Positions 16,801 to 48,358 of a stretch of DNA of 64,000 nucleotides are shown piece after piece. A program made the translations under genes and the position numbers. Position 1 is the stretch's first letter. The number at the start of each line of letters is the position of its first letter. Below the pieces are notes generated by a model that saw only the letters and a list, made by a program, of their open reading frames with translations, was not told the origin of the DNA and searched no databases. Origin of the DNA: Monilinia fructicola (Eukaryota > Ascomycota > Leotiomycetes > Helotiales > Sclerotiniaceae); assembly GCA_008692225.1 (NCBI GenBank), contig VICG01000009.1, forward strand, positions 124,001 through 188,000. The letters run 5' to 3'.

Positions 16801-17564
16801 CTTTATTAAATATTTTTTAATTAAGGGATTGTTAGCAGCTATTACAGTTATAGCTTTATAAACTAGTAAAACTTTTAGGAATAATTTAAAGATTTCAAAA
16901 TAAGAAATAATATTTTTAAATAATATAATTGTTTTTAAGAACTTGTATCAATAACAAAGATTTCAAGAAATAATTATGATTAATTCTATCGTATAGGAAG
17001 ATTACAGAAAATTTACTAAAGTTTTTAAAGATAAAGAAATACATATTAATTTTTACAAGGATTAGCAAAAAAAAATTTAAACTAAGAAAAGCTAAGATTT
17101 ATTTGGTTAATAGAATAAATTAAAAGTTTATTAATAAAATATTTGATTAGTTATATAAGCAAAGTTGGTTTAAATGGATTATAATACCAATCTTCTTTAA
17201 TTTTTCTATTTTTTGTATTTATAAAAATGTTATAAATGAAAAAAAAGTTATTAATAAAAAAGGTTGTATTATTATAAATATTAAAGTTTTAAACTAAATT
17301 ATTATTCCTAATGTATACCTGATTCTTATTTAAGTAAATATTATTATAATAATTATTAATTATTCATTTATTTTTATAGTTAATTATATTAATTTTTTTT
17401 ATTAATAGCGTGTTAAGGAAGAGTATTAAAAGTTTTTTATTATATTATTGTATTATAATTAAGAAACATTTATATACGTTATAATAAAATTTTGATATTC
17501 TCCGGTATATATTCAATATTAAATTAATTCTATTTTTTATATGAAATAAGAGTTTGTAAAAGCT

Positions 17565-17576
17565 TATATCAATAAT
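17565..17576 (+). pseudogene. reverse transcriptase active-site remnant
   Basis: The codons read Tyr-Ile-Asn-Asn followed by Ile-Ile-Ile-Phe, where the family carries the aspartate pair of the polymerase site. Both Asp-to-Asn changes are G-to-A, the RIP direction. Flanking codons on both sides also resemble reverse transcriptase once G-to-A stops are disregarded. Confidence 0.75.
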
Positions 17577-18879
17577 ATTATTATCTTTAATTATAGTTTT
17601 AAAAAATATTTTAATTATTTTTAGTAAGTATTTCATTAATTAAAATAATATTATATTATTTTAAATTTAAAAAAATACTTTTTTGTTTATTCTTCGATTA
17701 TACTTCTTGGTTAAAAAATCAATATTCTCGATCTAATTTTTATTATAAATAAATTAATAATTATTAAGGCTTTAATTTTCCTATAAATTTTTAAACAATT
17801 AAAGTATTATTTAAACTTAATTAAATATTTGCAATAATACATTTTTTATTACATAAAACTTTTTATTACATTATAAAAACAAAAAATTAAGTTAAACTAA
17901 ATACTTTAAGAATATAGTAAAAATAAAATTATTAAAACAAAATATTAGAAAGAAGCAATTTTAGTAAAATTTAAGGATATTATAAAAAAAAAAAAAATTT
18001 ATTTAATACATTATAATATACTTTTAGAAAGTTTGTTATCCTATATTATATAAATCTAAAAAAAAGATTATACATTGATATTAATATTTTAAAAAATAAT
18101 ATTAAAAGAATAATTTATTATTCCAATATTAAGCTTTTAACCCAAAAGTTAATAATACCTATTATGTTTTTATTTAAATTAATTATAATTGTTAAGTTTA
18201 ATTATTAGTTTATTAAATTAAAGATTACAGATTTATACTGGATTATTAGCAAAATTTAGTATTTTATTAAATCCTTAAAACTACCAACTATTGTTTATAC
18301 TAATTATTTTACCATTATTTAAATAATAATCTAAATTTTAATAAATACCTTATCATTGGTTAAATTAAATTTACAATATTTTTAAAGTTTTAAATACTTA
18401 TTTAAATTTTGATTTAAAGTATAATACAAATTAAAATAATTAAATATTATACTAAATACTTTATCAAAACTTTATATCATCAATGCTACAATTAGCAAAT
18501 AACAAAATTCTACAATTAAATCAACCTACAATATTGATTTAATAGAATTTTAAGGATATCCTATAACTATCTTATAGATTAATAAAATTTAATTATAAAA
18601 ATTAAAATAGGTTTACAATATAAATACTAAAACTTTTAATTTTATTAAATAAATTAAAAAAAATTCTAAACTAGAAATTAATATTACAAAATTATTTTTT
18701 AAATTCAAAAATAGAATATTTTATACAAAAGTTAATTAAATTCATTTATAAACTTATACAATAGTATCCAAATTGTTAAAGGCTAAGATTTTCAATTATA
18801 TATATAATCAATTTGGATATTTTGATTATAACAAAATCTACAAAAGAGTTTCGGCTAATTTCTATATTTTTAACATTTT

Positions 18880-19300
18880 AAAAAAGATTTAAGCTTATCT
18901 ACATTATTATTATTAATACAAGGTATTATCAACCCCACACTATTAACCTTATAATAACTTACAATCAATTTTAACCCCTCTACACATTTTTTATACAATC
19001 TCTATCAATTTTATATTTGCTTTACCTCAATCTACCTTAAATTTGTTTAATTATAATTTATTAATTATTAATAAATTTTTAAAAGCTATCACATTAATCC
19101 TAAATAAATTAACTTAAATAACAACTTAATAAAAAAATATTCTAATTACACATTTATTACAAATTTTATAAAAAGTTCCCCAAGCAATAATATTAAATTA
19201 AAATAAAAAGTTTATTTCTAAAATATAAAAGAATATTATAGATTTGTTAAATATTAAACTACTCTTTACCACTGTTTAACATTTTTAAATTAATAATACT
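18880..19300 (+). pseudogene. gypsy integrase core remnant
   Basis: Broken reading frame with recognisable fragments such as LSTPHY, ILTPLHIFYTISINFIFALP and LLIINKFLKAIT, in the order and spacing of the gypsy integrase catalytic core, interrupted by TAA/TAG codons. It lies downstream of RNase H-like remnants, as expected for Ty3/gypsy rather than Ty1/copia. Confidence 0.75.
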
Positions 19301-20216
19301 AATAAATATATTAATTAAATAATTGAAATTATTTTATACTATTATCTAACTACCATAAAGAATATTTTTTATTAGCCCAAAATTTTGTTTTACTTAGCTA
19401 TTACACTATCAAATTCTATTTTATATAAAATTAATATATTCATTACTATAATAATATATAATTTATAAATTAAAAAACTTTTTAATATTGCAATTAAAAT
19501 TATCATAGAATTTTTAGAGATAATCTTTTTACAAGTTAAATTTAAACCTACAGAACTTTTAGTTTAAATTTATTTTATTAAATTGTTAATTAATAGAAAA
19601 TATAAGCTTACTTTAATTAAAGTTATTAATGTAATAAAGTTTATAACAATATATATAAAGCATTAATATAATAAACGTTATAAATTAATATTTTTTCAAG
19701 GTTAATAATTAAATTTTGTTGAGATTTTATTATAATTATAACATACCTGATTTTACAAAATAAAATATTAAAATTAAATAATAATTTATAAAATTTTTTA
19801 AAATATTAAAAAAAGTAAATTGTTTAATATATTAAATTAAATTACCCAAATTAATAAAGATACATTTAATTATTAATATTGCATACTTCGAACCTTTACT
19901 AAACCCTATCAAGAATCTTTACTAATAATCTTTTATATAAGGAATTTTATAAAATCCAAAATTAATTATTAATCGAATCTTACATAAATAAAAATAATAT
20001 AAAAAAATAAAAAATTATAATAGAATATTTAATGCAATATTAAGGAAGAATTATAAAATAGGATAAATAATAGATAATGAAATATATTCTAATAGAAATT
20101 ATTAAAGCTTTTTAAAAATAAAATAATAAAAATAATAGAAGATTATACAATATATTTTCTTTATTCTTTTTTTTACTTTTATGTTTTGGAATAAAGCATT
20201 TTTTATTAATAGTATT

Positions 20217-26654: not shown

Positions 26655-28192
26655 CTATATGGCATTATTCCTCCTTCTGCTCCCATCACTGCTGGCATCC
26701 ATCTCAAAATGATGCGCATCAGACCCTGTAGCACCCTTCTCCTCCCATACGATATCCTGGGGTCTCTTCTCGGCCTCCAAGTCCGCCCCTTCGTATCCAA
26801 TCTTTGTCTCTCTGAATCCGTCTAATTCCTTGGCACAGACTGTGTTGAGATAGATGGGGAATGCAAAAGCGACAAAGAACCCAATGAGTGGTACGGTCAT
26901 GGAGATATGGTATCCTTTTTTGTCTGCGAGGAGACCGGTCAGGGAAGGGAAAAGTGCTCCACCCGAGACGGCGGCTACGACCCACGAGGCTCCACGTTTG
27001 GTGTGGCGACCAAGACCACGGATTGCGAGGGCGAAGATGGTAGGGAAGATACAGGATTCAAAGAAACTGATTATATTAGCTTTTGAGGTGACAAGAGAGG
27101 ATGAATGATGGGAACTTACAGAACAAGACATAACATAGCGACACCACCTTCGCCCTTAACTCCAATAGCAATCGAGATGAAGATCATAATGGCAGTCATG
27201 AATATCATGAGCACAAAACGTGGCTTGACAACCATCATCAGACCCGCAGCTGCAAATCTACCAATGGCAAAAAGACCTTGAGCGAGAGCAAATCTATCGG
27301 TAGCAGCTGCCTGAGAAAGTCCCGCACTCTCCTCGGCATACTTGATGAAGTTCGCAGCAACACCCACTTGAGCACCCACATAACAGAATTGCGCGGCCAC
27401 ACCAAAGATCAGCTTGTATTGTTTACGCATAGGCTTTTCTTCGTATCCTGTGAGACCGGCGGAACTCTCAGCTTGCAGTTCCATGTCTGCGTCTGTGACT
27501 TCGGGGAGTTTGCTGAAGAAGAAGACGACGGCGAGCAGGAAGACGAAACCGGCGATGCCGAGGTACGTCCATTGGACTTTGGAGAGATCCTGGCCATCTC
27601 CTTCTTTGAAGAAGACGCGCGAAGCGAGGAGGGGTGCGGCAACTGATCCTACGGCTTGGAAGGCTTGGGAGAGCTCGAGACGGAATTCAGAGAGACGTGG
27701 GGGTCCGCACGTGGCGATGAAGGGATTGGCCGATGTTTCGAGCGTGCTGAGTCCGGATCCAACGATGAATAAACTTCCGCAGAAGCCGGGGAATGATCGG
27801 TAGACTGCCGAGGGCCAGAACATCAATGCACCCACGCCGTAGATGCAGAGACCGACGATGAACGTCCATCTGTATCCGAATTTGCGCACAATCCATCCCG
27901 AGTATGTTAGGGGACCGATGAAATAAGCTCCAAAATAAGCTCCTTGTAAACCTCCAGCCTTGGCGGCAGTGATGTTAAGAGCGGTTTGGAACTTGGCGTT
28001 CAAGACGTCTAGTAAGCCGTATGCAAACCCCCAGAGGAAGAACAGAATTGTGACGAGGGTGATGGGGTATATGGACTGTCTGACTGTTAGGGCTGCAGCA
28101 CCGGTTAGGCCGGTGCTATTTTCCAAGACATCGTCGTTTGAAGCATTGTGTTTTTCCACTCCCTCTTGGGATTCTGATTTCTTCCCAAACAT
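26655..28192 (-). CDS. FucP-type MFS sugar/H+ symporter
   Basis: Major facilitator of the fucose-galactose-glucose:H+ symporter (FHS) group, plasma-membrane sugar uptake. Two exons, 27121-28192 and 26655-27067 (intron 27068-27120), total 1485 nt, 494 aa. TM1 carries LVTILFFLWGFAYGLLDVLN, the FHS-type signature, followed by about eleven more hydrophobic helices. The loop after TM5 has LETSANPFIATCGPP, also characteristic. The N-terminus is hydrophilic (about 45 residues) and the C-terminus is a charged cytosolic tail of about 50 residues. Substrate (fucose, galactose or glucose) cannot be fixed from sequence. No frame damage. Confidence 0.9.
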
Positions 28193-29819
28193 GTTGATGG
28201 TGTTGTATGCGATGAATCTGTGTAGGGGTTTGAGATGAGGATTATTATATGGAAAGCTTCAGGGAAAGATTAATGAAGGGAGGGAAATCCAGGAGGCTCA
28301 GTCAGATGAGACTTGTCGAACTGTCTGGTCTTCAAAAGAAAGGGGACAATCAGTAACTTATTTATTAACATTTTGAGATATCCCCAGATTTGACTTTTTG
28401 TGGAAAGGATCCTTGATCTGTCGAGTGACAGACATTTCTTCCCTGCACTAGCTCATCCACGTTTTCCAGGAACTATCCTGTCGCAGATAGCACATAACAT
28501 GAGACTCAACTATTCCGATTCCAGCTACCACTCCAAGATGTATCTTGTCCAAACAAAGAAGCAATTACGAAGAGTGAGGATATTCCCGTGACAACGACTG
28601 AAATGATTGGCCTTCCATGTGAGACTAAAAAGTGGACGATAGATTTACCGTGACGAAGCCGCCGCCCAAATAAAGGCTAATTGATTCCACTGATCCGTTT
28701 CCCCTATCTGGAGAAAGGGCACTACTCCGGGTATCTATAAATCGAAAAGCAAGATCCATATTTGAGGCTGTGTCATTGGCCAAGTCGTTCAACAAAATAG
28801 ATTTCCCCCGCACCCCGTGGTGCCCCGCGTGGTGTTAGAATCTTGGCAGAAAGCTAAATTCCACTATTTCTGCAGCTATCGTCAACTCATAGCATGACAA
28901 TGACAATGGCATCTCACTCTACGCAGTAAGTAGATGTATCTAAAGTACTGGATGGAAACTAGTTCAATGATTTCGTCTTCTCGGTTTCGTGTCTACCGAA
29001 TCACAGATCATCCCCTTTTCTTTTTCAGAGTAGAAATCCTTCACGGCGATACCGATGCCAATACCGATACCATCCATGCATAAGGAGGAGGCTCCCTCAA
29101 CCGGACTTTATTTCCAATCTCGGGCCAAGATATGACCTTGAGTACTTGTCAAGTCTTGGCTCGGGAAAGTTGGGATATGTCGGCGTAATTATGGATTCTA
29201 TATTTCTTCATACATCGTTAGGCTGGTAAAGATAAAATTGGCATAATTGGCATTATTGGCATGCATCAATTGAGACGTGGAGACGTGGAGACGTGCAAAA
29301 TAGCAAATGATCTCGAATGATAACCTTCCAAACAAATTGAAAATGCCGGCACTCATCAACGCCTTGTGATTGTCCACCACACGAAGGTTTAAAGTTTCAA
29401 TTCTAAAATTCCAAATTTCACATTTTCGAGCCGTTGTCTTTCTTTTGCTCTTCCCACGGGCCAGAAACTAGAACATACCAAGAAGAAATATGTTCGGCAA
29501 CGCCAAGGTATTGCAAGCGAGTGGTAGATAATGCATTTTCTATTAGCTTCTACCAAGACGATGGCTCGACACAACCCAGCAATATGGCCACATTGATATG
29601 AGATCGAGAGTCTTATTTCGCAGTCACTTGACTTAATACATCATGAAAAAGCGACAAGAAATCCATTTCGGGCCGAGAGGTTCCCTTCATTGAAAACCCA
29701 AACTCCATGCTACTCGTTAGAGTCATTAGCCAAGGATCCTAACATGGTTCCTCAATCAAATGCCAATTTGCAACTCCACGTTTTGAACCCCATACCCCAT
29801 AATTCTTTATCAAATCCTC
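28193..29819. other. intergenic, about 1.6 kb
   Basis: Contains the FHS transporter promoter and the 3' side of cluster member A. A small repeat (GAGACGTGGAGACGTGGAGACGTG, three units of about 9 bp) lies at about 29272-29296, and ATTGGCAT units at about 29239-29263. No credible gene. Confidence 0.4.
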
Positions 29820-30575
29820 TCACTTGGACCAAAGCTTCGATACGAACCCTCCAAATCCTTTCTTGCCATCCTTTCTCGCAAACCCTCGATAGATCTCCAA
29901 CTCGGCTTCGTATTCTTCCTTCATGTCTTCATATGCATTCTCTCCCTCTTCATCGAATCTAAAGTATCTCTCAAACTCTTCTCCAGACCATCTTCTCAAC
30001 TTAAGCTTCATTTTCAAACTCTGCCGCGCAAAGACCGTATATTGGAACTTCTCCTTGGCGTAATATGGCTGTTCATAGAAGAAGGCCATAGTACGACGCC
30101 AACTGAGAATATCGATGAAACGAGTACAGTGCTTGTTGGCCAGGATGAAATCAGGGTGAAAGCCAGCGTACATACGCTTATAAACATCGACATCTGTACG
30201 CTTGTATTTTCCTGCAATATCTTGATACAGAAGAGCGTCTGCAATTGCATGGCCGATGTTAAGTAATTCCTCCCCTGATCCCGCGATCTTGATATTTGTC
30301 ATCACGCCCATCTTTGTCTTCTCGGTTGAGACTTTGTGAGTTCGGATCTGAGCGCCTATCTTGAGGAATGGTTTCAGGAGACTTGCTTCTTGCTTCAAAG
30401 TATCAACTTGGGCCTCTAGATCGAGTATCTTTTTTTCTGCGTCACGAAGTTTGTGGTCTTTATCGCGCATCTTTTCATTGTGGAGATTGTGGAAGACTCG
30501 GTCGGAAGCGATGAGACGATCTGTTATGGTGCTACAACCGACGCAAGGTCCGTTAGGAAGACCGGGAGGGTTCAT
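29820..30575 (-). CDS. cluster member A: coiled-coil protein with shared C-terminal domain
   Basis: 251 residues in one open frame. Starts with a CVGC pair, then a coiled coil at about 35-65 (KDHKLRDAEKKILDLEAQVD). The C-terminal half matches the pattern shared across this cluster: a basic entry (IGAQIRTHK), a central ...IGHAIADALLY block, and FIDILSWRRTMAFF. After this it has an acidic helix and a basic, glycine-rich end. Function unknown. It is the shortest member, may have an upstream exon, and lies at the downstream edge of the array, with five relatives following on the same strand up to 44.9 kb. Confidence 0.72.
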   Translation of the reverse strand: MNPPGLPNGPCVGCSTITDRLIASDRVFHNLHNEKMRDKDHKLRDAEKKILDLEAQVDTLKQEASLLKPFLKIGAQIRTHKVSTEKTKMGVMTNIKIAGSGEELLNIGHAIADALLYQDIAGKYKRTDVDVYKRMYAGFHPDFILANKHCTRFIDILSWRRTMAFFYEQPYYAKEKFQYTVFARQSLKMKLKLRRWSGEEFERYFRFDEEGENAYEDMKEEYEAELEIYRGFARKDGKKGFGGFVSKLWSK

Positions 30576-31552
30576 GATGAGGACTTTGGGTTTTGGATGG
30601 TTGTTCCGAACTGCGGTTGCTGGGCGGTGGGTTAGATCTACTAATACAACAAGGTACGAGAAACGAAGCAGATAATTTAAGAACAGGGAACAACCTACTT
30701 GACGAAATTGTCGAGCTCACAATAGCAGGGAATTGGGATGAATTCGAGAGGTGAATCATCAAATTTACGTGGAGGAGAGAAAAGTGAAAATGGCAGAATA
30801 TCTTTGATATTATTCATTCATTGGATCAAGGAAGAAGTGCAGTGAATTTCAGGTTGTGGCCAATTTGGTTCGACTCTGCTGACTCTTCTTCAAATTGCAT
30901 GCTTAACCTGGAATATGACATTCATAGGTTTGGATTAAATCCTGGGATGACTTCTATTTCAATGTACGAGCCAGACGATAACATTTTGGCCTGCTTGAGG
31001 TCTGAAAGATCTAGATGAGCAGATGAGAATCTACTGAAGTCCGCGTAGCAGTTATGTCGAAGTCAAAGCTGGAAACGTTTCCTGGTCTATTGAATGAGCC
31101 ATACGCACACGACAGCAAGCTTCAGAGGATAAGAATTGAGGAAATAATTCCGTATCCCGAAAGACACACATTCGTTAGTGGACTGAAGTGGATAGATGTT
31201 TATGCACAAAGGGTGGAAGAGAAATACGGATTGAGGTACTGAGAGGTGATATTGAAAGTGGTATCGTTCGAAAGCCCTTTATGATGGTTTTGTTTGAAGG
31301 AAGGGAGTCACAGGAATTAGCAATTTATGCTATTCGGAGATGGAATTTGTGATTTGGTGTGAATGAGTATGATACTGGTAAGTGATCTGTTTTTCCTCAC
31401 TCTCACTCTCGATTCAAAACAAGCATATCCAACGTTCCATATTCCTGCATTTTTCTCCATACTTCTAAGTCTACCACATCCTTGCAGCAGTCACCCGAGT
31501 TTCAACTTGGCCCTAAAAGCATCTTGTAAAGCTTCTCAAGATTAGAGAGAGG
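30576..31552. other. intergenic between members A and B
   Basis: About 1 kb. A plus-strand frame at 31054-31242 (62 codons) has balanced composition but no recognisable domain, so it is not called. Confidence 0.35.
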
Positions 31553-33625
31553 CTAACCTGATATCTTCTTCCTACAAACAGTTAGCATCATGTGGATGTA
31601 TTTAGACGATGCATCAACTTGCCATTCCACCTTTCTATGCTTCTTATCACTCTCGGCTGCATCATTGTACTCCCGGCACATCGCGGAGAAAATCTGCTCT
31701 GCATCTTCATCTTCGGTCAAAAAAGTATCCAGGGACTCCGATGATTCACCTAGGGTTTTTTCAAAATGATCTTCCCACTGTCTAACTTCCTGTTAAAACA
31801 GTTGGAAGCTGCTTTCGAATCCGGTCTCAGAAAGTTGAAGAAGAACCTTGAACTTTCTCGTGCTATATCGCATGTTGAGAGCCTTGACTATGGTTGGAGA
31901 GTTCTGATGCCTAGTGAAATTCTCGATACTAACGCCGCAGGAGGTTTCGAACCACTTTTTGTCTTCCTCAATTGGCTCTTGGCCATTTGTTGTGAGACAG
32001 GGAGACAGTTATGTACAACACTTTTTAGTCAAGGTTTCTCAACGTTTGAGCGAGAAATGGTTGGAAGAAACTTAATTTCCTCTATGAGCAGCGAGACTTC
32101 CTTGATATATGATCTCTTAGTTGCGTTCACTGTGAGGTTTACTCTTCTCGCGCTCACGAGCGAGGATACTCTGACCAATATCGAAAATTGGGCCATATTT
32201 CTTCTCGAGTTCAGCGAACTGAGACTCGAATTTGCTTTGAGCGTCTTGATCTTGATCTCTTGAGCCTCTTTCAGCTTTTCGGCTTCTCTTCTCTCTTGCA
32301 CGCGCAGTATCTGAGCTTCTGCCATCTTGCCAGAAATTGCTATGTTGTGAGCTACAATCATACTCTTCTGGTTCCTTAGCGTCTTTATTTTTTGCTCTGA
32401 TACCTTGGTTTTGATAATGGCAAAATGTTCGTGGAACAAGGAGATTTTTTCTTCCATATCCTGCTTCAGGGCATTCGTCGCTTGAACCTGCTGCATGATC
32501 ATCTCATCTCTTGATCTTACATCCCAGTGCAAAACCAGAGAAATTTCGAGATTATCCTGTGAGCTATATTTGTCATGCCATTCTTTGGCCAGAGTTTCAT
32601 ATTCCCGTAGAAAATTATTCGTATGTGGTAATCTACAATCTGCTGCATGAGTAAAACTAACCTCTTGGCTCGTGACCCTGGCATTCGATATTTGCAACAG
32701 AGATCGCTTCGAGATATACATTCTCTCGGTCTGCTCTGGACTTGGATCGAGCTCAACTATCTCTTGTTTAATATCAGCACAGAATTTAATACCCACGCGG
32801 TTCAGAATACCAAGATTGTTTTCAAGCGGCAGATTGCTCGCAGCAAGACCTTTTTCTAACTCAGATACTGTTGCTGCAAGTGGTTTATGAGCACCATCTT
32901 CATCCTCGGATGCATGCATCGAAGCATCCTGTCTCGATTGATTGTCCACTGCGAGATGATTGGGGACACGGTGGGAACCTTGCAACTTTTCCGATTTCCT
33001 CTTGACAACTTGGAATGCCTGTCTCATAGACTTTAGTTGATCCTCGAGAACCAAAATCCCTCGCTCGTGTTGCTCCCCTAGTTTCTCCAATTGCCCTCCC
33101 CATAGATTGCACATCTTGCCTCAAGAATGTCGACTCTTTCTCAGATTTTAGACGTTCCTCTTCGAGTTCAATCGAAGTTTCTCAGTAGTAATACGCACCA
33201 ACTTCATCGTCGTCTCTACTTGACGCATATCCTCCAAGAGCTTCGCTATGGTACGTCGAGACACAATTTCGTGCTTTCCGAACTTTTCACGTTCCTCTTG
33301 GAGATCTCCTATGAGAATTTTGGAGACTGCGGCTCTAGTCTTGTTGATATCTCGGAGTTTTGTTAAATCTATCTCCAGGGCTTCCGTCCTGAGTTGCAAT
33401 GCGTGGGTCTCGTCTTGCGATTCTTGGAGTTGTTTTTTGAGAGCTTGGATTTCGCTCTTCAGTGCAGTCGAATTTGTTCCTCATCCTTGGACGTAAGTGG
33501 TGAGCTTCTGTAGCAGGTCCATTGGGCTGTCTTCGGTGGGGTCCTCGGGTTTGTTTGTTGATGAGGCGCTGCTATCGCTAGGGATGGGAGTGCTCGTGGG
33601 CTTCTTTCTTATTCTTGTTACCCAT
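31553..33625 (-). pseudogene. cluster member B: coiled-coil protein, multiply frame-broken
   Basis: Reading downstream from an ATG at 33625, a low-complexity Ser/Thr/Pro start (PIPSDSSASSTNKPEDPTED) leads into long coiled-coil segments spread over at least three frames (about 33400-32030). The C-terminal domain follows in another frame (about 32000-31555): DKKWFET..GVSIENF, then VKALNMRYSTRKF, then an in-frame TAA at about 31796, after which DTFLTEDEDAEQIF..MCREY continues to TAG at 31553-31555. The domain and its tail match member C best. At least five disruptions are seen. Some may be undetected introns or homopolymer errors, but the number favours a decaying copy. Confidence 0.6.
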
Positions 33626-34478
33626 CTCGAAATTTCTGTGAAGTTTCTCAATCTAAAATATTATGAGAAACGTCAACGATAGCCGAAGGTAGATTTTCAG
33701 AGAATTCTTGAAGTCAAAGTCTGTGACTGGAATTCTTGAGAAGGTATAGCTCGGAAATAATCTAATATTACTAAATTAATCTTGGCTCTGTTCTTCTCCC
33801 AATACTAATGTATGTGATGGTGAATACAATGAACCAAATGTAGAATAATATGTAGCATCTAGGATCAAGATTTAGCAAGGAAGTTGCCCTTCTATGCCAA
33901 GAGATTCTATACGGCAGAATTATAGAGCTGCATTATATTTTCCTCTAGAGCTTGTAATATTTACACTATTGTACTAGTTCTGAATAGCTGCACTTCTGCA
34001 CATCTGCAATGCCGCAGACGGTGGGATTTGTACTGTGAGTATAGTTGGATATATAGTAAAAGTTTCAACGAATCCAATACGTGTCTTATATCTCTAGGTG
34101 ATTCTAGTATCAGCGGTATGACCGGTGTTGAATGATCAATGTATTCTGTTTCTATCACATTGCAGGTACGATGGAAGAAAAAGAAGATGCTATAACGAAA
34201 CTCTTGTAGTAAAAATCGTTCCTGTCCTGCTTTCGCGAGATTCATGGTGCGGGTGCGATAGAACTATAAAGCAATTTTCTTGTGGAAAGTTTAGGCATGT
34301 GGACTGAGACGGGAACATGGGAAAAGAAGTATCGTTTACTTGCATGAATTATGACTATATTCTTCATGTCATTGCTATCCCGCTTTTGATACCATTAAAA
34401 TGTAAAATCCATCGAGTCCAAACGCAAAATCGATCTTCATTGTGCTGATCTGCGTTGCCATATTGATGCGGTAAAAGC
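33626..34478. other. intergenic between members B and C
   Basis: About 850 bp, no supported gene; probably the promoter of B and terminator of C. Confidence 0.35.
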
Positions 34479-36213
34479 TCACTTCTTGGTCCAAGGCATG
34501 GCGTCTTTAGCGGAGGCCAGCATGTCCTTGCCATATTCTTCTATTTTGTCAAGTCGGGTTCTCCTTTGCGTCTCTCCAGTCATGAGAGAAGCACTGGATT
34601 TCATACTTGCTCCAGATATCGATCTATTTCTCCTGCAACTCGTTAGTATGATGTCAAAGGTACAAAGATAGAGGTATTTACAGGTCTCTGCCCTCTTGAA
34701 ATCCTTTTCTCTGTGATGCCATGGTGATGTCCCACATGCTGCATAACTGCTGAAATTTGACCTTTGCCTTCTTGTTCTTCAAAAGGAAGCCGTCAACGGA
34801 CTCTCTTGTTGCATCCCTGCCTTTCTCTCGAATTCCAGTGAGTAAAACCCGAAATCCTTCCTCAAACTCCAAGGCGGTGGCTCGGTACTCTGCTTTGCAG
34901 TTGTACATCTCATACCGCATATTTACAAGCTTTGTAAATGCAGGGCTTTCGCTGAATATTTCAAAGGTCTTCACATCCAAGCCATAGTTCTCCTCGAACC
35001 ATGGAGAGTCGTTGGCATCGGGGTTAGACTTGATTCTGAAAGCATCCGCCCTGCAGCTGGATATATGTTAGCAAGCGATCTAGATCAAATGGTTAGCTGG
35101 CTAATAATAACTTACGTTCCACCATGTGCTGAGAGGTTTCCTGCCTCGATCACGTGGACGCTGCGACTTTCGTGGGGTTTCGTCAGCTCTCTTTTTCGGC
35201 CTAGAATTCTGATAGACACCTCGCTATGGGCAGCTAATTCCCGATGCAGCTCCTTCATCTCAGCTGCAGAAGTCAGCTTTTCTTTTTCGAGTTTGGCGAT
35301 AATTCTTTTTTGTTCCTTCAGTTTCTCCTCGTACGTAAGTTTTATATCTCATCGGCTGAGGACCTCTCTTTCTCTTCGAAATCGGCGATGATGCTGCTCT
35401 GTTCCTTCAACTTCTTCTCGTAGCTGACCTTAATCTCAGCCGCCGAGCTCTTTCTCTTTTGTTCAAGATTGGCAATGATGATATCTTTGTCTTTCAGCTT
35501 CTTTTCGTATTTGCTCTTCATCTCAGCTCTTGACGCTTTCTCTTTTTCCTTGATATCTGCAACAACTTCTTTTCGTTCCTTTAGCTCTTTTTCACGTTCA
35601 CTCTTCATCTCGGCTTCTGAGATCCTTTCTCTTTGCTGCAAGCCCGTACCAATGTTATCTTGCCCCTGGAGCTTTATCTGGTGCTTGACAACATCAGATT
35701 TGAGTTCCTTGGCTTCAGATTCTAGCCTACTGATCTCCGATTCGAGTTTAGTTATGTCGGCTCTTAGCGCGTCCATGGAGTTTGACATTCGCTCAGTCAC
35801 CACCCTCTGACATATGATTATGTCGATATCATCTCGCCTAATATGTGAGCGACGCCATGATTTGATGGAAGATTCATATTTCTATCCGAGTATTAGCATT
35901 TCATCTTCGAGTCTCCATATATGATACACCATACCTCAAGATCAACCTTTGCACCCGTGACATCAAACGCCTTCTTATTCTCAGCGATTTCATCCAGGGA
36001 TGAGGTCCAAACCTCGATGTTTTGCTTCTGGACCGAAGTAAAATGTAATTTTAGTTGCTCGTCTATGCTCTTGAATATGCCAACCTTCATCGCTGCCGGC
36101 GGCTTTCGTTCAATGCTAGCTTCTGTGTTGGCTACCTGCAATTCCTTGATGACAAATCGAAGCAATCTATTTTGCGTTTTTAACTCGCCGTTCGACTCCT
36201 TGAGTCGCTCCAT
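34479..36213 (-). CDS. cluster member C: long coiled-coil protein with shared C-terminal domain
   Basis: From Met at 36213 (coding similarity continues upstream to about 36330, so a 5' exon is likely). Residues about 1-105 are helical; after an intron near 35885-35935 comes a coiled coil of repeated units (…KEKEKASRAEMKSKYEKKLK…) of about 27-28 residues. The frame shifts near 35345 (two extra bases, ATATA), then continues through the shared domain: SIRILGRKRE, GNLSAHGG, intron 35051-35115, ADAFRIK, WFEENYGLD, FTKLVNMRYEM. A further intron with an ACTAAC branch point (34633-34681) leads to a last exon ending at 34479. Function unknown. Closest to member B. Confidence 0.68.
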
Positions 36214-36330
36214 CTGGAATTCCTCCGACGTCTCGATGAGTGAGGTCGTATTTTCATGTTGAATTGTGAGCTGGCCACTACTTGGTATAGTAATGAGAGT
36301 GACATTTTCGACCTTGTAAACCTTGGAAGA

Positions 36331-37855
36331 GGAGGCTCTAAGGATCTTTTTGTTTGCTCTTTAGAAGTGGAGTTGTCTCTTATTTGTGTCTGAATAACAA
36401 GATATATCGTGGATCTGTTCCGAAAATCTATTTATGAGCATATGAACGACTAAATAGTCATCGTACTTGCGCTAGTCGATATAAACGGTTCAGTACGGCT
36501 ATTTCAAATGTATAGTGCGACTTATTGGGTATATGCTGGCTAGGGGGCATTAGTGAACCGTAATGAAATCTTCTACGGCACTATCTTATACAGCTGGTTT
36601 TTATTTTCGTATAATTATCTGTGTACTTCTGTTGGAAACCATGGGCCATGGTGCAAGAATTGAATTGAAAGCTTGGAGAAACTCCCAGATGCGCTACAGA
36701 GAGCTCAGAATATATCATTCTTCTTTCATAGATCTTGAACTAATTATATAAAATACGGTATAGTAGACCGAAGTAAGCACAAAAGAATATCTGGGCATAA
36801 GAAACACTGAAGAATATTATTTTGTTCGGCCTGGCTGAAAGGGAATGTAAGAAAAACACAGCTCTTCAATAGACTTCAATTAGTTTAGTATCTTGTGTTC
36901 ATTTTTATGTTGCCTGATGAAAATCTGATCATGTTGACAGCTATACCTGCCTTCTAAGAGGTCTCTCTTTCCCGCAAGTTGCCAATAACTGTACCTGCAT
37001 CCCACTCTGTGATGGCGCGCTCGATAATCATTCGGTCAGACTCACCATCCTGACATACAGGTCAGAATATATAGGTGTGAAGTCTGAACCCATAACAGTG
37101 CAGGTTTCTCGTTTTTTTTTCGTGGAGTATCACCTAGCTTTGGGCTTTCGGGAATGCTGTGTAACGTGAGTAAGCGAGATAAATAGGGGATGCTGGAAAG
37201 GATGTGGGGTAGGATTGCGGACCATGACTGGTTTCATCAACGACAAAATGAACTTCACTGAAAAGAATCATGTTGGCAGAAGTTTGAGGAGGTTCCACCC
37301 ACAGAATTGAACCAGTGATTTTTCGTGCAAAGGTGGGTGAGAAATCATGCCGTATTTAATGTGGCGCACGTACTTATCTGAGAGAACAGTTAGATGAAGC
37401 ACTCGTAAGCCACAAGATTAATGAAAAGGTCAGATTAAAGAGAAAATGCACATTAGCCCAGAAGATATATGACTAAATACTGTGAAATGTATGTGTCAAC
37501 ACGGACACGAGGCATTTATACTAGATTATCAGCTAGCAGGGATAATCGAGCTTGATGTTGATTGCTTTTCTTAACACGCTAGACTGAACCCGATATATCT
37601 TGAGACGACCTCTACCATTTGTGCATTCAAGAAGTAAAGAAGGTAAATACAGTGTTTGATACTATCCCCCATTGACTGAGAAGCTCCATGCCTGTTCCAT
37701 CCCGTGAATAGACTCTCTAAGATCTGAGCGTGCTCCAAACCTTCAAGTATCAACCTCTATGGTGCGTGATATACGTTGCATGAGCCGCGGATAGTTCAAT
37801 TTCCTTATTCATCAGATCTGCGTACTCCATATAAAGGCCTATGCTGGAATCGAAG
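36331..37855. other. intergenic between members C and D
   Basis: About 1.5 kb, mildly AT-rich, only short unsupported frames (for example 36563-36751 +). Holds the likely promoter of C. Confidence 0.4.
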
Positions 37856-38874
37856 TCATCTCCGTTGCCTCAATTGCCCATCTGGGTGTAATTTCGAGAT
37901 CAAACTCAAGATTCTCCCACTCAGCTTGTTGAAATCCTCCAAACTTAAATTCTCGAAGCGCCACGTACTTAGATTTCCACGAAATCTGAGTAGGCGGGTG
38001 AACGTGGCCGATTTGGCGTGTGCAATTACGACAGAAGGATCAATACCGTAAGTTAGTAGGTATTGACGCTTCTGCCAGATGACTCGTGACTTATCAACGC
38101 AATGCAGGACGGCGACTGCATCCGCGACTGGTGCTGAGCCATGTGCACATTGATTTCCATTTTTCCTTAACTCCTGTACAACATCTGAGTGTATTGAGCC
38201 ATCCCTTGGTGCGTCATTGACAATTTTTCGGATCCTGACACCAAGGCCAATGTCGTAAAGCGCCTTCATCTTCATCATTTCAGATCTGGCCTTCTTCAAC
38301 GACATCTGCGCTTCCTCTGATTGTTTCTCCAATATACCTATATCGATTGCATGCCTCGCTTCCAGTTCCTTCATGTGTGTCAACAAGTACTCCAAATTGT
38401 TGTTGTCGACAGCAGCTTCAACAGTCTTGGCGATGGGTATATCTGTAATTGTTCTCAGCAAAGTTATTGTCATCGGAGCGACAACAGACGGCGGAGTAAA
38501 CAACTTACTATCTCCACGTGCAAGATCTTTAACTTTCTTTTCATGATCGATAATGACATCTTTACATGCTATTGTCTGCTGTTGATTCTCGATCACCATC
38601 ATCAGACTACTGTGGCTCACAGCTTTCTCTCCGATGACCTGGCGTAGACCATGAATAACCTCCTCATTGACTTTGCGTGCCGTCTTTTCCTCCTCGAGTT
38701 GAGCGCTCAAATCGGCAATAACATCCTCTTTGATTCTGTTCGCAATCTTCTGTTCGGCGAATCGGGCTCTCAAGTTGACAATTATATCCTGAAGGGGTAA
38801 AGGTTAGCATTGATTGATTGAGGCCCACCTAGAGTACGTACCTTGATATGCTGGAGGCTCGCATCTTCTTCCAT
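37856..38874 (-). CDS. cluster member D: intact coiled-coil protein with shared C-terminal domain
   Basis: The best-preserved member: exons 38842-38874 and 37856-38788, 966 nt, 321 aa, no damage. Residues about 10-90 form a coiled coil (DLSAQLEEEKTARKVNEEV), with a second at about 150-185. The C-terminal domain starts at about 190: LGVRIRKIVND, then ELRKNGNQCAHGSAPVADAV, then LLTYGIDP, then FTRLLRFRGNLSTW. The GN..AHG...ADA block and the F..LLR.R helix define the family across this array. No signal or membrane segment, so it is probably intracellular. The GN..AH pattern faintly recalls the RN..H element of HEPN folds, but the classic spacing is absent and I do not claim that fold. Confidence 0.8.
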
Positions 38875-39572
38875 ATTGAAATTGTTGAATTTAGGTGTTT
38901 GGGTAACGTTGTTGATGCGACAAGAAGAAGAGAACGGGAATATTTTATCTGTCTATAAAATTCCCCAGATCAGATATTAAAAGTCGAACGAGAATTCCGC
39001 TCTGCCCTTAGAGTAAATTGAAGAAACGAGTGAATTCATATTCACTTCCAGTATCTCGGCGCAGTGGATGACAAAGAGTAATTTGTTGTCTGGATATTGA
39101 TTTTATATTTACTAGGCGAAACTAAAGAATATTGATCTACAATTCGAAGGAATGCATGGGAAGTGAAATTGTAGTAGAAAGCATCATACTCTCATGATCG
39201 ATTCATGGCTCACTACTATTACATCCCTAGTACTTGCCCCAATATCCTTCAAAAGCAAGACTTTATACTGCTCTTAAGCTCCATTTGAACTTCTTCAGAA
39301 GGCATTCACATGTCACGATACAGTCGTGAGCTTCATTAGTTCATCCTAAGTATTATATAGCTCAGGGGCTTCCCTAGAGACTCATTCATCCGCGTCAGGC
39401 TTCTACCCACCCTTCAGTTCTTCCATGGAGTTTATTCTTGTAAAAGCCATTCAATACCTCTTCTAAATAGTGCATATCTATTTCCTACTAAACTCAAACG
39501 ATTGCATCGTCTAGAATTCTCACAAATACCGAGAAGCGTTACAGGCTGGTAGAAGTCTGAAGTATTCTGGTC
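38875..39572. other. intergenic between members D and E
   Basis: About 700 bp, no supported gene. Confidence 0.35.
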
Positions 39573-40860
39573 TCAGAAGTGTAACTGGAGGAGAAACAAT
39601 GCAAATCTCTTGGTATTCATCTCTGGATCCGGGTTGTGCATCTTTCCTTCCAAAGGAACTAGTTTGGGGAAGACAGAAGAGATAGCTTTATAGCGGAGCA
39701 GATAAATTAGCAAGAGGTTTTCTCCAACTATAACAGTCACAAGAAGGCAAAGGTCATCTGGTGCTATAATCGTTTTTACAAAGCGCTCATATTTTGTTTT
39801 CAAAGTAACAAGAATTTAAGCAATCTCTGCAGCTGCTGAAGAGCTCCGCTTGCATATGGAGTATTTTGATTCTTGCATTTGTACTAACTACACTGATTGC
39901 TCCCCCGGTAAAGAGAGCAGTATTGCCAGACGAGGGTTTCTCCCATCGCTGTTGATATGGATGTATCAACCCAGACCATCATCGTCCAAGAACGTAGTTT
40001 TGGCTTTGAGATTACCGTATGCATCTTTGAATCGCTCCATGGCCACATTGGTGTCCGTGAGATTGGTAACACATAACTTGAACCCCTCAACTTCATCCTT
40101 CAAGCCTTAGCGGCATTTCCCCAAATAGCTGTGTTCGTCACGAGTACGGTCAGAACGTAAATTGAGCTCCATTTTCAGCCGATTGTTTTCCCCCACAGAT
40201 AGCTTCACGTTCTTCTTGATGGTTGTCAGTGGAGCGACTTCTTCCTGTAGTCTATTAATCTCTTCATCCACGGATGTTATCTCGATTTGTGATTATAAGC
40301 GCCTCATTCTCCGTCTTCAACACAACTATATTCTGGTTCAAATAATACCCAGTATAGCGATTCGTGATTGCGATTACATCGACTCCCACTTTTAACCGAC
40401 TGAGTTCCTCGCCAGCAGAAGCTTTCGTGTCATCTAGGGTTGGCTGCAGGCTCTCAACCTTCTTCTGTAGCTCCCTATTCTCCTGCTTCAGATGCGCCTC
40501 AAAGGTGTATTTTTCGCCACCACTCGCCTGAACATGCAATTACTTTAGATATGCAGCCTGCATTCAGATATCCTCCACGACTAATTCATGTTGGTTTTCT
40601 TCCACAACAAAGCACCCGATTTCTCGGTCCATTTGTTGTTAACTTCGTGCCTCTAACCTCTTGCGCTCAACTTGCTTGCAGAGATGTTGGATGGTCGTTT
40701 CTTCGATGCTAACTACTTGAGCTAAGCTGAGAAGTTCTGCTTGCTTCGCGACCTACTCGGCTTTTGAGTGTAGAAGTGAGATTGGATCCAATCAAGGCAT
40801 TGGTTGCGCGATTTGAGATGGTCGTGGTGGGCTGTCTATGGGGTCTTCACCAACTTTTAG
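39573..40860 (-). pseudogene. cluster member E: fragmented coiled-coil relative
   Basis: Coiled-coil segments appear in separate frames: LLSLAQVVSIEETTIQHLCK at about 40630-40720, HLKQENRELQKKVESLQPTL at about 40440-40500, and LKDEVEGFKLCVTNL at about 40060-40105. The shared domain follows in further frames: SSGNTALFTGGAIS at about 39905-39935 (compare GNSSVYNGRPI in member F), then a frame change near 39800 to IIAPDDL and IYLLRYKAISS, equal in place to member D's IDP and RLLRFRGNLS. Stop at 39573. With at least four frame changes it is probably a relic, though part could be unrecognised introns or sequence error. The 5' limit is approximate. Confidence 0.55.
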
Positions 40861-43404
40861 GATTTTTTGTGTTGTGATGAAGTTAAAATCAAGATAGAGT
40901 CTGGAGCTCCCGGTGGAGGTGAGAAACAAGTATGTTCGTAGGGTTACATGATCTTGGAATTGAAAACGTACTAAGACGAGTATAATTTTGTAATCCGCTT
41001 GGTATATTGAAGTGACCTCGGGAGGCTTTGGAGCTTGAAAATGCAGGTATAAGGTTGTCGTCTCATGAAGAGAGGTGTGAAATAATTGAAAAGTCTTGAT
41101 GATGACTATCAAATGACTACTACGTGTATGTCAAAATGTAAGAATAACCAGTTGAGATCAATGACTAGAGATATACCTGGTAAGTTCGACTTGAAAGATG
41201 GAAACAAACAAAACAATGGTGCCTAGATACCTTGTCTTCCTTCAAACAAGACCTTCAAAGCTCTCAATGACCTGATTCGCCTTTCGCCCAATATACACCA
41301 TTGATACAAAGAACTGCTGGAGATAGTAACTTGAGATATTAGTTCTCTCAACTAGCAAATAGATTCTCCCCAGGGTTGTTTCAATGAAAATATGTGAAGG
41401 AGTTTTAGAAACCTTTGCTGAAACGACAGTATTTCTTCACCCAGTTCACCACACCTTATGCCAATCAGGCTGCATCAATGATGGATACAATTCATCAGGA
41501 GATCTTCTTAATCTCACAGATGAACTTCGACAGCCATACTTCATCAAAGAGGAGTAGAAGGCAATGAGCAACCTCAAGTGATTTTACAACACTTGATCAT
41601 CTCCCTCAACCTGATAGTCAACACACTCCACGAACAGTAAATGAATCATCAGAAGATGAGAATCCTCTTACCCAATGGACCTACCTCCATCATTCTTTGA
41701 TTCTTTCCATGCCAATCATGGACCTCATATCCACACGTTTTAGACCGAGTTTTCGCGGCGAAAAGAGTTTATATTCCACATAAAATCATCTGACCTTCAC
41801 TCCAACACGCCTTCACCAATGCCAACACTCTCATCCCATGCCATGCCATCCCATCTCAACTCAACCTTCCCAAATCCCACAAAAACTACACCACCCCACT
41901 CAAAAAACAAAAAAAAAAGCCTCCTCGACCTTCAAAACAGCAAAAGCTTAAGAGCGCGACGCTCTTATGCCCCAATGAACCACCGCTATATACATGGGCG
42001 GCGAAACCAATATATACAGCAATGTCACTGTCCGAATCGAAGCCCTGCCAATTGCTAAGTAGAGAGGCGGACAAACATTCTCGGGAATGATGAACTCTAC
42101 CGCTGCGCCAACGAGACGTGGGGGTGCTTGGATAGTTGTTGTGGTATCTGAGGTTATATGGGGGAGCTGGTAGCGAGGTTGATGTTGATGTTTTTGGGCC
42201 CAGGCACTCACTTGTACATCCATGGATGAAGACGATTCATTATAACTCTATTGATCTCGCGTTCCGGATCCTTACATTTGAGTATTCCTCGTCCACATGT
42301 AGGATTTATAATTTTTGTGTTTTGTTTGAGTTGGGGTCAGGTACTCGCAATTTTAACCACACTCATAAACTAGCTTGTTTGCTAACAGGCAGGCGCTGGG
42401 GGAAAAACTCTTTAAGATTCATAACCATAACAATCTATCTCTGGAGTAAGATCAAGTCTCATCTTTTCTCTTTGAAAAAGGAAAAATAACTATATATACA
42501 GAAGGAAAGTAAACTCCTAAACCAATGGGTATTTTTCTGTTGCTTTATAAAGGAAATTCGTATGCAAACGTTGTGCAGTTGTATCTTTCTCATCAATTGT
42601 CGATCGTGTTCATCATCCTGTCTTCCATCCATCCAATACGTATTTCGTATATCCAAATTCGTTATCGTGATCCTCATAAACATATCCATATCCCAAACCA
42701 TCCACCCATCCCATCCCATCCTATCCCATAACATCCCATTCCATATCCTTCCCGCACTGCAAACTGAATCATGCCTCCAAGCCGGTGAACTGTCTTTCTA
42801 TTTCTCGTCTCCACTTTACTTCCAAAAGAACAGCTTCCCCAACTTCTCAGCACGTGGAATATTCCAATTCCAGCCCCAGCGATGTGCAGTAAGTACTGCA
42901 CATTCACCCGCCAACCATCCTAACACCAAACCCGACCGAACACACATCACCATATCTTCCATCTCCAAGTCAAAAGTTCCTAATCCGCACCACTCAAGAT
43001 CAATCTCAAGATCTGCATCCAACCAATCTTCTAACCCTATCAAGTCATTTTGCTCCACCCACCACAATAGCCAGAGCATGAATTGACAAATAATAATCAA
43101 AGTCAACATTCCGCACCTCATCACACCCGCCACAATCCCCCCTTTCCACATCCACAACCATATTCCCATATTCATACCAGAAAAACACACCCCCTTGTTT
43201 TCGCACATTCAGTATGTAATATAATATAACAAGATAAGTTTTACGATACAGTATCTCGCCTGCCAAGCGGCAATCTCGATACACGGCGGGATTTCACAAC
43301 AGCAGCTTCAAGAGGAATTTGAACTTGCTCTCCACAATCACAAGCACAAGGAAGATAATCAGACTTACCATTGCCTGATCCCAATCCCGCTGCCCTTCTA
43401 ATCT
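40861..43404. other. intergenic, about 2.5 kb
   Basis: Composed of ordinary to pyrimidine-rich sequence with CCCATCC-type microsatellite (about 42700-42740) and TATAT tracts. Frames at 42562-43086 (+) and 42816-43208 (-) overlap each other, are low complexity and unsupported. No transposon remains recognised. Confidence 0.4.
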
Positions 43405-44869
43405 TCATGTTCCTTCTCTTCTCATCAAGGTAACATGCCTTGAGCTTCTTCCGCGTAATGTTTGCGCAATACTCGCGCACGCCGGCAAGATCCATTTCCT
43501 CGAACGTCGTGTGTCGATGTTTTTGGTCCAGGTCTTGAAGAACTCGCTTTCCATGTAGTCGGATTTGCGCCAGGCTTTGACCGAGGAGTGCCAGCGGAGC
43601 ATTTCGATGAATTCGGCGCAGTCTTGGAGACGCAACACAGTTTGCCAGCTTGCCCAGTACAATTCCTTGAAAGTTTCCTCGTCGGTTCGCTTCTCGAATG
43701 CAATACCGGGCACGTGAGAGAAGAGGGTAGCGTCGGTGATAGGACGTCCGTTATAGACGCTTGAGTTGCCTAGTTCGTGAATGGCGTTGCGTTCCTTGGC
43801 TTTGGGATCGAATGAGGAGTTTCGTTCAAGAAATCGGTTACGGACACGTTGGCCGACGAAGAAAAGATGTTTCATCGATTTCCGCTGCTGATTGAGTGCA
43901 GAACGAACAGTTTCAGCGATGAATTCTTGGATCTTGGGGTTTTCTTTCCAGTCTGAGACATGCTGGTCAGGATTGACGAAGGTGGATTCGCTTTGGAGCT
44001 CTTCGTGTGGAGGTGCACCATAATCAAAATCTTGTTGGGTAGAGGATGATTCGAGTTTGAGCTTCAATTCGGAGTTCTCGACTAGTAAGGCGCCCACATC
44101 AATCTTGCCTTTGTGGTTCACGGCTTCTTCGTAAAGTCCGACTTTTTCCAACAATTTTTGGTTTTCCTCGGCTAGCTGCTCGCACTCCAGCGTCTTCATA
44201 CCAAGTGATGATTCCAAGTGGACAAACTTGATGTTAGTCTCATCTTCCCGAATCTCAGTTGATAATTCCCCATTTCTCTTGATGAAGTATTGGACAATTT
44301 CATTCTTCTCCAGCAACTTGGTGTTGACCTCCTTAAGCCCCGATTCGATTCTCTTTGCCAATGCAGCAAGAGCTACAGCTTCCGAATGCTCGGCAACCAT
44401 ATCTTCAGCACATTTCTTGAGACTTAGTTTTTTTCACTGCGAGACGTTCTTCTAGTGTTTCTTCTAGGATATGATCTTCCTCCCCAAAGGCAGGTCCTGA
44501 TTTGTCTTGAATATTTTCTTCGTCCTCATAGATAGCTCCAAGGCGGTCACCTGGAGTTTCCTCTGGAGTATGATCTTCGTCCCCAAAGGCAGGTCCTGAC
44601 TTATCTTGAATATTTTCTTCGTCCTCAGAGATAGCTCCGAGGCGGCCACCGGGAGTTTCCTCTGGAGTGTGGTTTTCCTCTCCAAAGACAACTCCCGATT
44701 CATCTTGAACGTTTTCTTCGTCCTCAAAGATAGCTCCGAGGCGGTCACCTGGGGTTTCTTCTGGAAAATTATCTTCATCATCGAAGCCAACTCCAGAATC
44801 CTCCATGAGGTCATATTCGTGGCCGGAAGTGGTAGATTCTCCCATGTTGAAATATCCGGATTCTGGCAT
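43405..44869 (-). CDS. cluster member F: acidic-repeat, coiled-coil protein with shared C-terminal domain
   Basis: Start at 44869. Residues about 30-150 are four tandem 33-residue acidic repeats (unit like EETPGDRLGAIFEDEEN). The frame then breaks at a T7 run (about 44427-44433 on the + strand); one base less joins it to a coiled coil (LLEKNEIVQYFIKRNGELS), then the family domain: VGQRVRNRFLERNSS, HELGNSSVYNGRPITDATLF, ETFKELYWASW, FIEMLRWHSSVKAW. The tail is basic. About 488 aa after allowing for the break. Function unknown. The acidic repeats are absent from the other members. Confidence 0.75.
44464..44800 (-). repeat. 99-bp in-frame tandem repeat in member F
   Basis: Four copies of a 33-codon unit with the core T-P-[GE]-[DG]-R-L-G-A-I, an acidic stretch and Q-D-[EK]-S-G. 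The DNA copies are highly similar (TCATCTTGAA/TTGTCTTGAATATTTTC phrases recur), pointing to recent expansion. Confidence 0.85.
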
Positions 44870-46051: not shown

Positions 46052-46943
46052 TTATGAAGAAGCAACTTGCTTCTGATTCCATTGTACACATTCATCAAAT
46101 GTGACTCCGGAACCTCCAAAAACATCCAGAGCACTTCCGATCGTAAGATCAACCTTTCCACCACTAAGTCTCTTGACATTTTCAAGATCTTGAAGGTTTC
46201 TTCCACCACCTGCGTAAGTGACTGGAATACTGCACCATTGTGCTAACTTCTCGACGAGTGGTTCGTCGATCCCCTTTTGCAAACCTTCATTATCCGCTGC
46301 ATGGATTAAAAATTCTGAGCAGTATGGCTCTAAGGATTTGATAGATGCTAGAAGAGATATAAGTTTTTTGATGACGAAGAGAGGAATTAAATGACTCACC
46401 TTCATTCACCTCCATGTCTGTAAGGGTTTGCCATTTATTCATAGCCACGAACCAAGTATCATCTCTTCTTCGGCAACTAAGATCAATGACAAGTTTTTCC
46501 TTATCACCACCTAAAGCTGCCAGTACCGAGTCCAATCGTTCTTGAGAGAACTTCCCATTAGGAAACAGGAAAGAAGTGATAATGACCTACTATTCCAATC
46601 AAAATCCGAGCGCTTATCCGCCAGCAACGCAATAGAAACATACCCTCTCAGCACCCCATTCAATCCACTGCTTGGCATTTTCATCTGTAACACCACCTCC
46701 CACTTGAAGACCATTCTTCCACTCTCCCACAGCCGCTTTCGCAGCCTCCTCATTTCCAGGTCCAAGCATGATGACATGAGCACCAGTAAGACCATTCTCC
46801 TTGTAGAGTTTTGCGAAGTGACCAGCTGGTAGCTTTGATACGTAGTTGGTCTTCAAATCAGATGAAGCAGTTGTTAACGTACCTCCTACAATCTGCTTCA
46901 CCTGACCTGAATGTAGGTCTATACAAGGTCGAAATTTGGTCAT
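46052..46943 (-). CDS. HIS6: ProFAR isomerase (histidine biosynthesis)
   Basis: 1-(5-phosphoribosyl)-5-[(5-phosphoribosylamino)methylideneamino]imidazole-4-carboxamide isomerase, the fourth step of histidine biosynthesis; a cytosolic HisA/HisF TIM barrel. Exons 46644-46943, 46400-46586 and 46052-46347 sum to 783 nt (260 aa), the normal size of eukaryotic HIS6. Key marks: [18 protein letters not shown] with the catalytic Asp at the N-terminus, LQVGGGV for the first phosphate site, [18 protein letters not shown] with the second catalytic Asp region, YAGGGR and LTIGSALD for the second phosphate site. Divergent from the FAF1-like gene with 297 bp between start codons. Confidence 0.95.
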
Positions 46944-47240
46944 GATGAGAACCTCCCCAAGCTGATGTTTCCAAGTACAAAAGTCAACGGAAACAATCCC
47001 AAGTTCGAGGCTCTTTATAGAAGAAAACAAAAAAGTATCGAGTAATAGTGAAATTTGTTGTTGACCTGACTCTGTGTAACTAAAATCGTGTTTCTTCAAC
47101 CAAAAGAGCTCACCAGCCGGCAGAATCTCGGCTGTTCGCCATAATTTTTTCCCATCCCATCCAGAACATTTCTTTTTGAGGGAAGCTTCAACTCCCAAGT
47201 TTGCGAAAGTCACCAAATTCCAAGTAAATAATTTTTCAAT
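46944..47240. promoter_or_regulatory. divergent promoter, HIS6 / FAF1-like
   Basis: Just under 300 bp separate the two start codons, so both genes must share this upstream region. No defined binding site was identified; a canonical TGACTC amino-acid-control element appears as GACTCTG (about 47070), only a weak match. Confidence 0.5.
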
Positions 47241-48358
47241 ATGCCGGAAACCCTCGGAAAACGAAAGCGCTCGTCTGCCACTACAACCAGTAGCTCTAAG
47301 CTTCTTAGAGTATCTAAAACTACTCCGACAATACCAGAACCCGTTTCTGAACCGCAATCATCAGATATCTCTTCAAACGACGAAGACGGAGAAGAGGAAG
47401 GGGAAGATGAAGATGACGCAGAGCCCCTGGATCCCCAAGAAATATTCCGTCGTCATTTCGAAGCACAATTCAAGCCGCTCCCTCCCACAAGCAAAAAATC
47501 CAAAGCTAGCGAAATAATTGAAGATCCGGAGAATGAGGAAGATGACGATTGGGACGGCCTATCAGACAATTCTGCAGAAGACGAAGTAGAAGAACAAAAT
47601 GGCGTTCAAGTAGTAGAACATGTGAAGAAAGTCGATTCACGAATCGCAGGAATGACTAAAGCAGAGTTGAGAGCATTCATGGTACGTATATTCTTTTCCT
47701 GTTCCATATCATATCATACTGCATTATACTAAGACAAAAGTCCAGTCTTCCAAAATCCCCAAATCCCTCCCCACAACCTCAATATCCAAAATAAAAAGCC
47801 TCCCGGTCGGCTCCGCAGATGACCCCGGCGCAACCGAAGCTCTGAATTTAAAAAATGATCTCGCGCTTCAACGTCTCCTGGACGAGTCACATCTTCTCAC
47901 TTCCTCATCATCGAATACTTCCTCCAATGCATACGCAACACATTCACTGCAAGGAAAAAAACCGCTTGAAGGCCCTTGATCTCCGAGTCCAGGCATTAGG
48001 TGGGAAGACGAGTATTCATAAACAGGAAAGTATGCCGATGAATATGCGAAAGGGAATAGTACGGAAAGCGGAAGAGAAGGAGGAGAAGAGAAGGAGAGAG
48101 GCGAAGGAGAATGGGATTGTGCTTGAGACGAAGGCAGGGAAAGGCGGTGGGAATGGGGGAAGAGAAAGGAGGAAGGAGAGGAGTGGAACGGGAGGGACTT
48201 TTGATGGAGGACCTGGGGTGGGTAGGATGAGGGGAGCGACGTTGAATTTAAGTGAGAGGGATGTGCATGGGATTGAAGGGAGTAAGAGAGGTGGCGGAAG
48301 GATGGGGAGGAATGGAAAACGTGGTGGGAGAGGAAGAGGGAGGGGCAACAGGAGCTAA
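47241..48358 (+). CDS. FAF1: FAF1-like 40S ribosome assembly factor (DUF4602)
   Basis: Nucleolar small-subunit processome factor of the Faf1/C1orf131 family. Exon 1 is 47241-47681 and the second begins at 47746 (ATG|GTACGT donor, TCCAG acceptor). The N-terminus has a basic patch (LGKRKRSS) and an Asp/Glu tract ([14 protein letters not shown]); [19 protein letters not shown] and [15 protein letters not shown] follow. The C-terminal half fits the DUF4602 pattern: [28 protein letters not shown], and [16 protein letters not shown], then a Gly/Arg-rich tail. The frame breaks at an A7 run (about 47953-47960); with six A's the sequence is continuous. Family name rests on remembered pattern, not a search. 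Confidence 0.68.

Follow-up and report, generated by a model that had tools for sequence, protein, structure and literature searches.

Profile comparison places four genes on the minus strand of the Monilinia fructicola genome, designated here A, C, D and F, in one C-terminal domain family, and a fifth locus, B, is by the same kind of evidence a decayed relative of C. All of them lie in the stretch of 64,000 nucleotides that was analysed (hereafter the window, to which all coordinates refer). The best explanation of the cluster, favoured only tentatively, would be a family of intracellular helical scaffold or adaptor proteins with F as the membrane anchor. The most interesting feature is a conserved alternative end of F, which was absent from the preliminary description of this DNA. 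The loci are the following:

29820..30575, minus strand: gene A, an intact, intron-free open reading frame of 251 aa
about 30081-30356, minus strand: shared domain of gene A, preceded by a long helix (profile link to F, E 1e-6)
31637..32604, minus strand: locus B, a decayed C relative with in-frame stops in the matched stretch
34479..36303, minus strand: gene C, at least four exons; the upper limit is where the N-terminus of the M. laxa protein aligns
35934-35882, 35115-35051 (within the domain) and 34681-34633, minus strand: introns of gene C according to the gene model, the last read from the sequence
37856..38874, minus strand: gene D, two exons, intron 38841-38789
39450..40950, minus strand: claimed locus E, whose family membership is not supported
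42816..44869, minus strand: gene F, with an acidic repeat N-terminus, a helical region, the shared domain and alternative C-termini

The preliminary description had proposed six minus-strand paralogues, A to F, joined by an unrecognised C-terminal domain, and had suggested that the domains be linked by profiles. Both strand and membership hold for A, B, C, D and F; the membership of E is not supported. The domain profiles compared with hhalign (built from 8 of 10 A-type proteins, 2 of 3 D-type, 10 of 20 F-type and 11 of 19 C-type) link A with F (E 1e-6, probability 91%), C with D (E 6e-6, 85%), D with F (E 1.5e-5, 80%) and A with D (E 2.5e-4, 43%); the link between C and F is weak (E 0.009, 4.5%), and A and C have no direct link (E 0.18), being joined by transitivity only, via D and F. 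The links of A, C, D and F stand above the reversed-profile controls, all 12 of which gave E values of 0.16 or worse. Searches of the whole genome (44.03 Mb, 20 contigs) find F with A as query (E 9e-4) and A with F as query (E 1.4e-3); a C-type query returns B as the next locus after C itself (E 7e-4), and the D query finds itself alone at E<=1. No significant copy outside the window emerged from six such protein searches (three places, with E of 0.145, 0.6 and 2.0), which score the best candidates only and ignore introns and may therefore overlook distant copies.

The assignment of B comes from two other approaches. A tblastn search with C orthologues gives a domain-wide match (best E 1.7e-14), and a frame-tolerant scan scores 43.7 bits at B; with A, C, D and F masked, the rest of the window does not exceed 20.8 bits, and none of 60 shuffles exceeds 24.8. 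At the position of the GT donor of C's intron 2, B has TT. The stretch claimed as E is at chance level: its 13.8 bits in the frame-tolerant scan are reached by 35 of 60 shuffles, and tblastn at E<=1 finds no match inside 39450-40950. Searches against Pfam, with a library that lacked PF27823.1, place no family above its cut-off in sets of 8, 8 and 6 sequences. One A-type protein, P0012 of Botrytis sinoallii, carries the precomputed Pfam label PF27823.1, which the other nine of this type lack. The proteins, until now unnamed and "hypothetical", come in four sets from Monilinia, Sclerotinia and (A, C and F) also Botrytis; they now form a single family for which an anchor-and-partner model can be tested.

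In total 52 proteins were found (10 A-type, 3 D-type, 20 F-type and 19 C-type), the named sources being Monilinia, Sclerotinia, Botrytis/Botryotinia, Ciborinia and Stromatinia, with Rutstroemia for F only; D occurs in one other named genus only. These sources, Ciborinia and Stromatinia included, all belong to the Sclerotiniaceae or the Rutstroemiaceae, and both families are Helotiales. In a tree of 28 proteins (8 A, 2 D, 7 F and 11 C) each group forms one clade, with support of 100/99 for C, 99/98 for A, 95/94 for F and 92/84 for the two rows of D. Fast birth and death does not hold for A, C, D and F, each of which groups in a single clade with its counterparts in other genera; B, which is decayed, and E, which is unrecognisable, are the sole loci that could fit gene death. 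The duplications are old, since each of the four genes has its own orthologues in one or more further genera, in many cases under neighbouring locus tags.

The four lineages differ in rate, F being near-frozen, A slow, C faster and D the fastest-evolving member. Compared with the M. fructicola protein, the domain of F is 86-97% identical, that of A 84-90% and that of C 61-78%; the domain identity of D, measured between S. nivalis and P0001, is 52% (42% over the full length). The seven orthologues of gene A are 80-86% identical over their full length. This very uneven identity, together with the different lengths and tails of A, C, D and F, is what would be expected if the genes were leftover tandem duplicates that now serve in separate, unrelated roles without assembly, an explanation that we regard as unlikely though not negligible. 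Against it stand the close locus tags kept in several species, which hint at a joint role without proving it: F, C and A are SBOR_3635, 3639 and 3640; D, C and A are OCU04_006442, 006445 and 006448; and in six Botrytis records the numbers of F and C differ by five or six genes (two of these records are numbered in tens). The tags of A and C in Ciborinia are 170 numbers apart, and that of F in M. vaccinii-corymbosi is more than 30 from those of A and C. Judged in this way from tag numbers and not from gene order, the data suggest that the cluster may have been kept in several species.

The same figures bear on the proposal of a self/non-self recognition or immunity family under birth and death. 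The rapid evolution of D and C, the decay of B, the unrecognisable state of E and the variable repeat number of the F proteins would all suit such a family, but the separate orthologues across genera and the nearly frozen sequence of F would not, and the Pfam matches of the 8, 8 and 6 sequences include no HET, NACHT or related domain. We consider this reading improbable. Of the earlier pairing "recognition or scaffold", the scaffold half is still viable, whereas recognition has gained no positive evidence.

The preliminary description also spoke of broken copies. Frame breaks do exist in F, D and C, but each has an intact relative: the frame of F, which changes twice in the window, is uninterrupted in another M. 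fructicola record, P0014; D stops earlier than its close relative P0001, which reads further and is 98% identical to the window D over the aligned part; and C, whose frame is broken once in this assembly, is complete in both M. laxa and M. fructigena. Given these intact relatives, the breaks look like length differences between strains or assemblies, and strain difference or assembly error would be a simpler explanation than gene death. This does not extend to B, which has stops and has lost a donor. The assembly was built by DBG2OLC with a Sparc consensus, and the word "pilon" does not appear in the main text of the paper that describes it (PMC6795239). This is a warning that apparently "broken" genes in this assembly may reflect errors of length.

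The gene models also required revision. C, annotated as EYC84_007347, has at least four exons; the first exon of D (EYC84_007348) lies upstream and starts at 38874, and the annotated P0002 has the same beginning; and F reaches 42816 and not 43405. Most C-type proteins (17/19) are 504-561 aa long, and the other two are partial (225-226 aa). The helical region of C (window 35342-35881) carries a 29-residue repeat in all four orthologues tested, a spacing that is no whole number of heptads.

An N-terminal coiled coil had been described for every copy. The structure model of A does contain a helix at residues 17-88, although confidence is low in the final third of the helix and the model is poor overall (mean pLDDT 55). 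A heptad-range periodicity is clear in two of eight stretches (equalled by 2 and 4 of 300 shuffles), but the other six are matched by 19 to 61 of 300. Coiled coils are plausible in the family, the periodicity arguing weakly in their favour. Intermediate filament and tropomyosin families (PF00038 and PF00261) were rejected because they scored only 15.6 and 16.4 bits, respectively, where the cut-offs are 40 and 38.6 bits; the likeness to such coils consists of a charged helical region. The model of the C-type domain is all-helical and of moderate confidence (mean pLDDT 66), with ten-residue blocks between 51 and 120 averaging 84-91 and the GN..AHG stretch (residues 30-46) under 50. Comparison of the models with PDB folds gave no convincing structural relative, which does not in itself make the fold new.

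The GN..AHG block of C and D, which we take to resemble the histidine motif of HEPN domains, gave no match. A diverged HEPN-like RNase or RNA-binding domain would agree with the all-helical C-type model and with the invariance of G, N, A and H in six C and D pieces. Several observations speak against it and make it very improbable: F has Y in place of H and A has no H at that position, no Pfam HEPN match is found in the six domain pieces, and no DUF4145 match occurs genome-wide at E<=10. What C and D, but not A and F, have in common with the DUF4145 branch of the HEPN superfamily is a conserved histidine block in a helical domain, and the Rx4-6H spacing by which the motif is defined (PMC3710099) is not found, D having R-x7-H and the R of C lying further off; nor is there any sequence match.

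The components of F are the following:

44437..44797, minus strand: N-terminal repeats of F, three copies of a 99-nt tandem repeat in the acidic part
about 43534-43866, minus strand: shared domain of F, 86-97% identical in six other species
43194..43368, minus strand: terminal intron of F, 175 nt, donor GTAAGT
42816..43193, minus strand: terminal exon of F, with two hydrophobic segments and an acidic loop, found by homology

The acidic repeats have fewer units in the M. vaccinii-corymbosi and Botrytis proteins. The terminal exon is matched by residues 432-566 of the Botrytis protein P0016 (tblastn, 64% identity, E 6e-42), and in the window splicing of the terminal intron leaves the frame off by one. 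When the intron is left unspliced, the frame runs on to a stop at 43241 and ends in a different tail (GKS...RRDTVS). Among the 20 F-type proteins, 14 have the hydrophobic tail, five the unspliced one, and one is cut short. The first hydrophobic segment is over the threshold of 2.0 in 12 of the 14, the two others (P0016, 1.77; P0024, 1.89) having the same tail, and the second is moderate throughout (1.26-1.66). Charges were counted for five of these 14 proteins: in all five the loop is devoid of K/R and contains 7-13 D/E, and an excess of K/R follows the second segment. On the near side of the first segment an excess of basic over acidic residues occurs in only one of the five, so the flank argues weakly for a cytosolic N-side. 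A hairpin with both termini cytosolic would be the likely topology.

The unspliced tail is short, with a CGE motif and RRDTV near its end. Pairwise identity among the five proteins ranges from 24/42 to 35/42, with one pair at 24/44 (55-83%), and the length changes keep the frame and the same ending. GKS stands at the join in all five, and the donor in the window spells it (G+GTAAGT+C). Conservation of this frame in five proteins would imply membrane-anchored and soluble forms of F, a switch that we infer from sequence. All instances of the unspliced tail come from gene predictions and ORF calls, and it is quite possible that this tail is an annotation product that is never translated, which would be compatible with the other readings. 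In Botrytis cinerea, intron retention is the most abundant event, and most alternative splicing is judged erroneous by the authors of the study in question (PMC11857874). That the tail keeps its frame, its ending and 55-83% identity in five proteins speaks against an artefact. F offers a clean case in which to ask whether a fungal intron has been kept as coding sequence on purpose.

In the preferred reading, that of a scaffold family with F as anchor, A, C, D and F, all of which have a helical N-terminal half and the shared C-terminal domain, would be cytosolic proteins. Bearing on secreted effectors, the search for an N-terminal signal peptide covered hydropathy in ten proteins. Splicing of the F transcript would add a membrane hairpin of two segments, whose two ends would probably both lie in the cytosol, whereas a retained intron would yield soluble F ending in another conserved C-terminus. 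No membrane segment was seen in A, C and D, which may be soluble partners of each other or of F, joining through their helices or through the shared domain. The more specific proposal of a fungal complex peculiar to this family, with membrane attachment set by splicing, is rather doubtful as a whole: it would need the F intron to double as a conserved coding exon, a two-pass anchor alongside a soluble Cys-containing form, paralogues acting as soluble partners, and a new helical domain.

Two known systems resemble what is predicted for F. In the related fungus Sclerotinia sclerotiorum retained introns are the commonest splicing event (39.8%), and some isoforms lose or gain all their predicted membrane helices; those events were recorded within one species, whereas the frame of the F intron is kept in five proteins (PMC7749757). 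The string sscle_06g0546 is absent from the main text of that paper, and F's own locus in S. sclerotiorum was not identified. Stop-codon readthrough of fungal metabolic enzymes likewise gives one gene two C-termini and two destinations, but there the enzyme gains an extension, while F would gain a membrane hairpin by splicing (PMC4207609).

The surroundings of the cluster provide two minor observations. Between gene-rich stretches, window 14001-20000 has a GC content of ~0.14 over 6 kb and looks like an AT-rich, repeat-mutated block. The flanking genes at 46614-47357 and 26655-28258 may encode a histidine-biosynthesis isomerase and a sugar transporter, respectively, as judged by eye.
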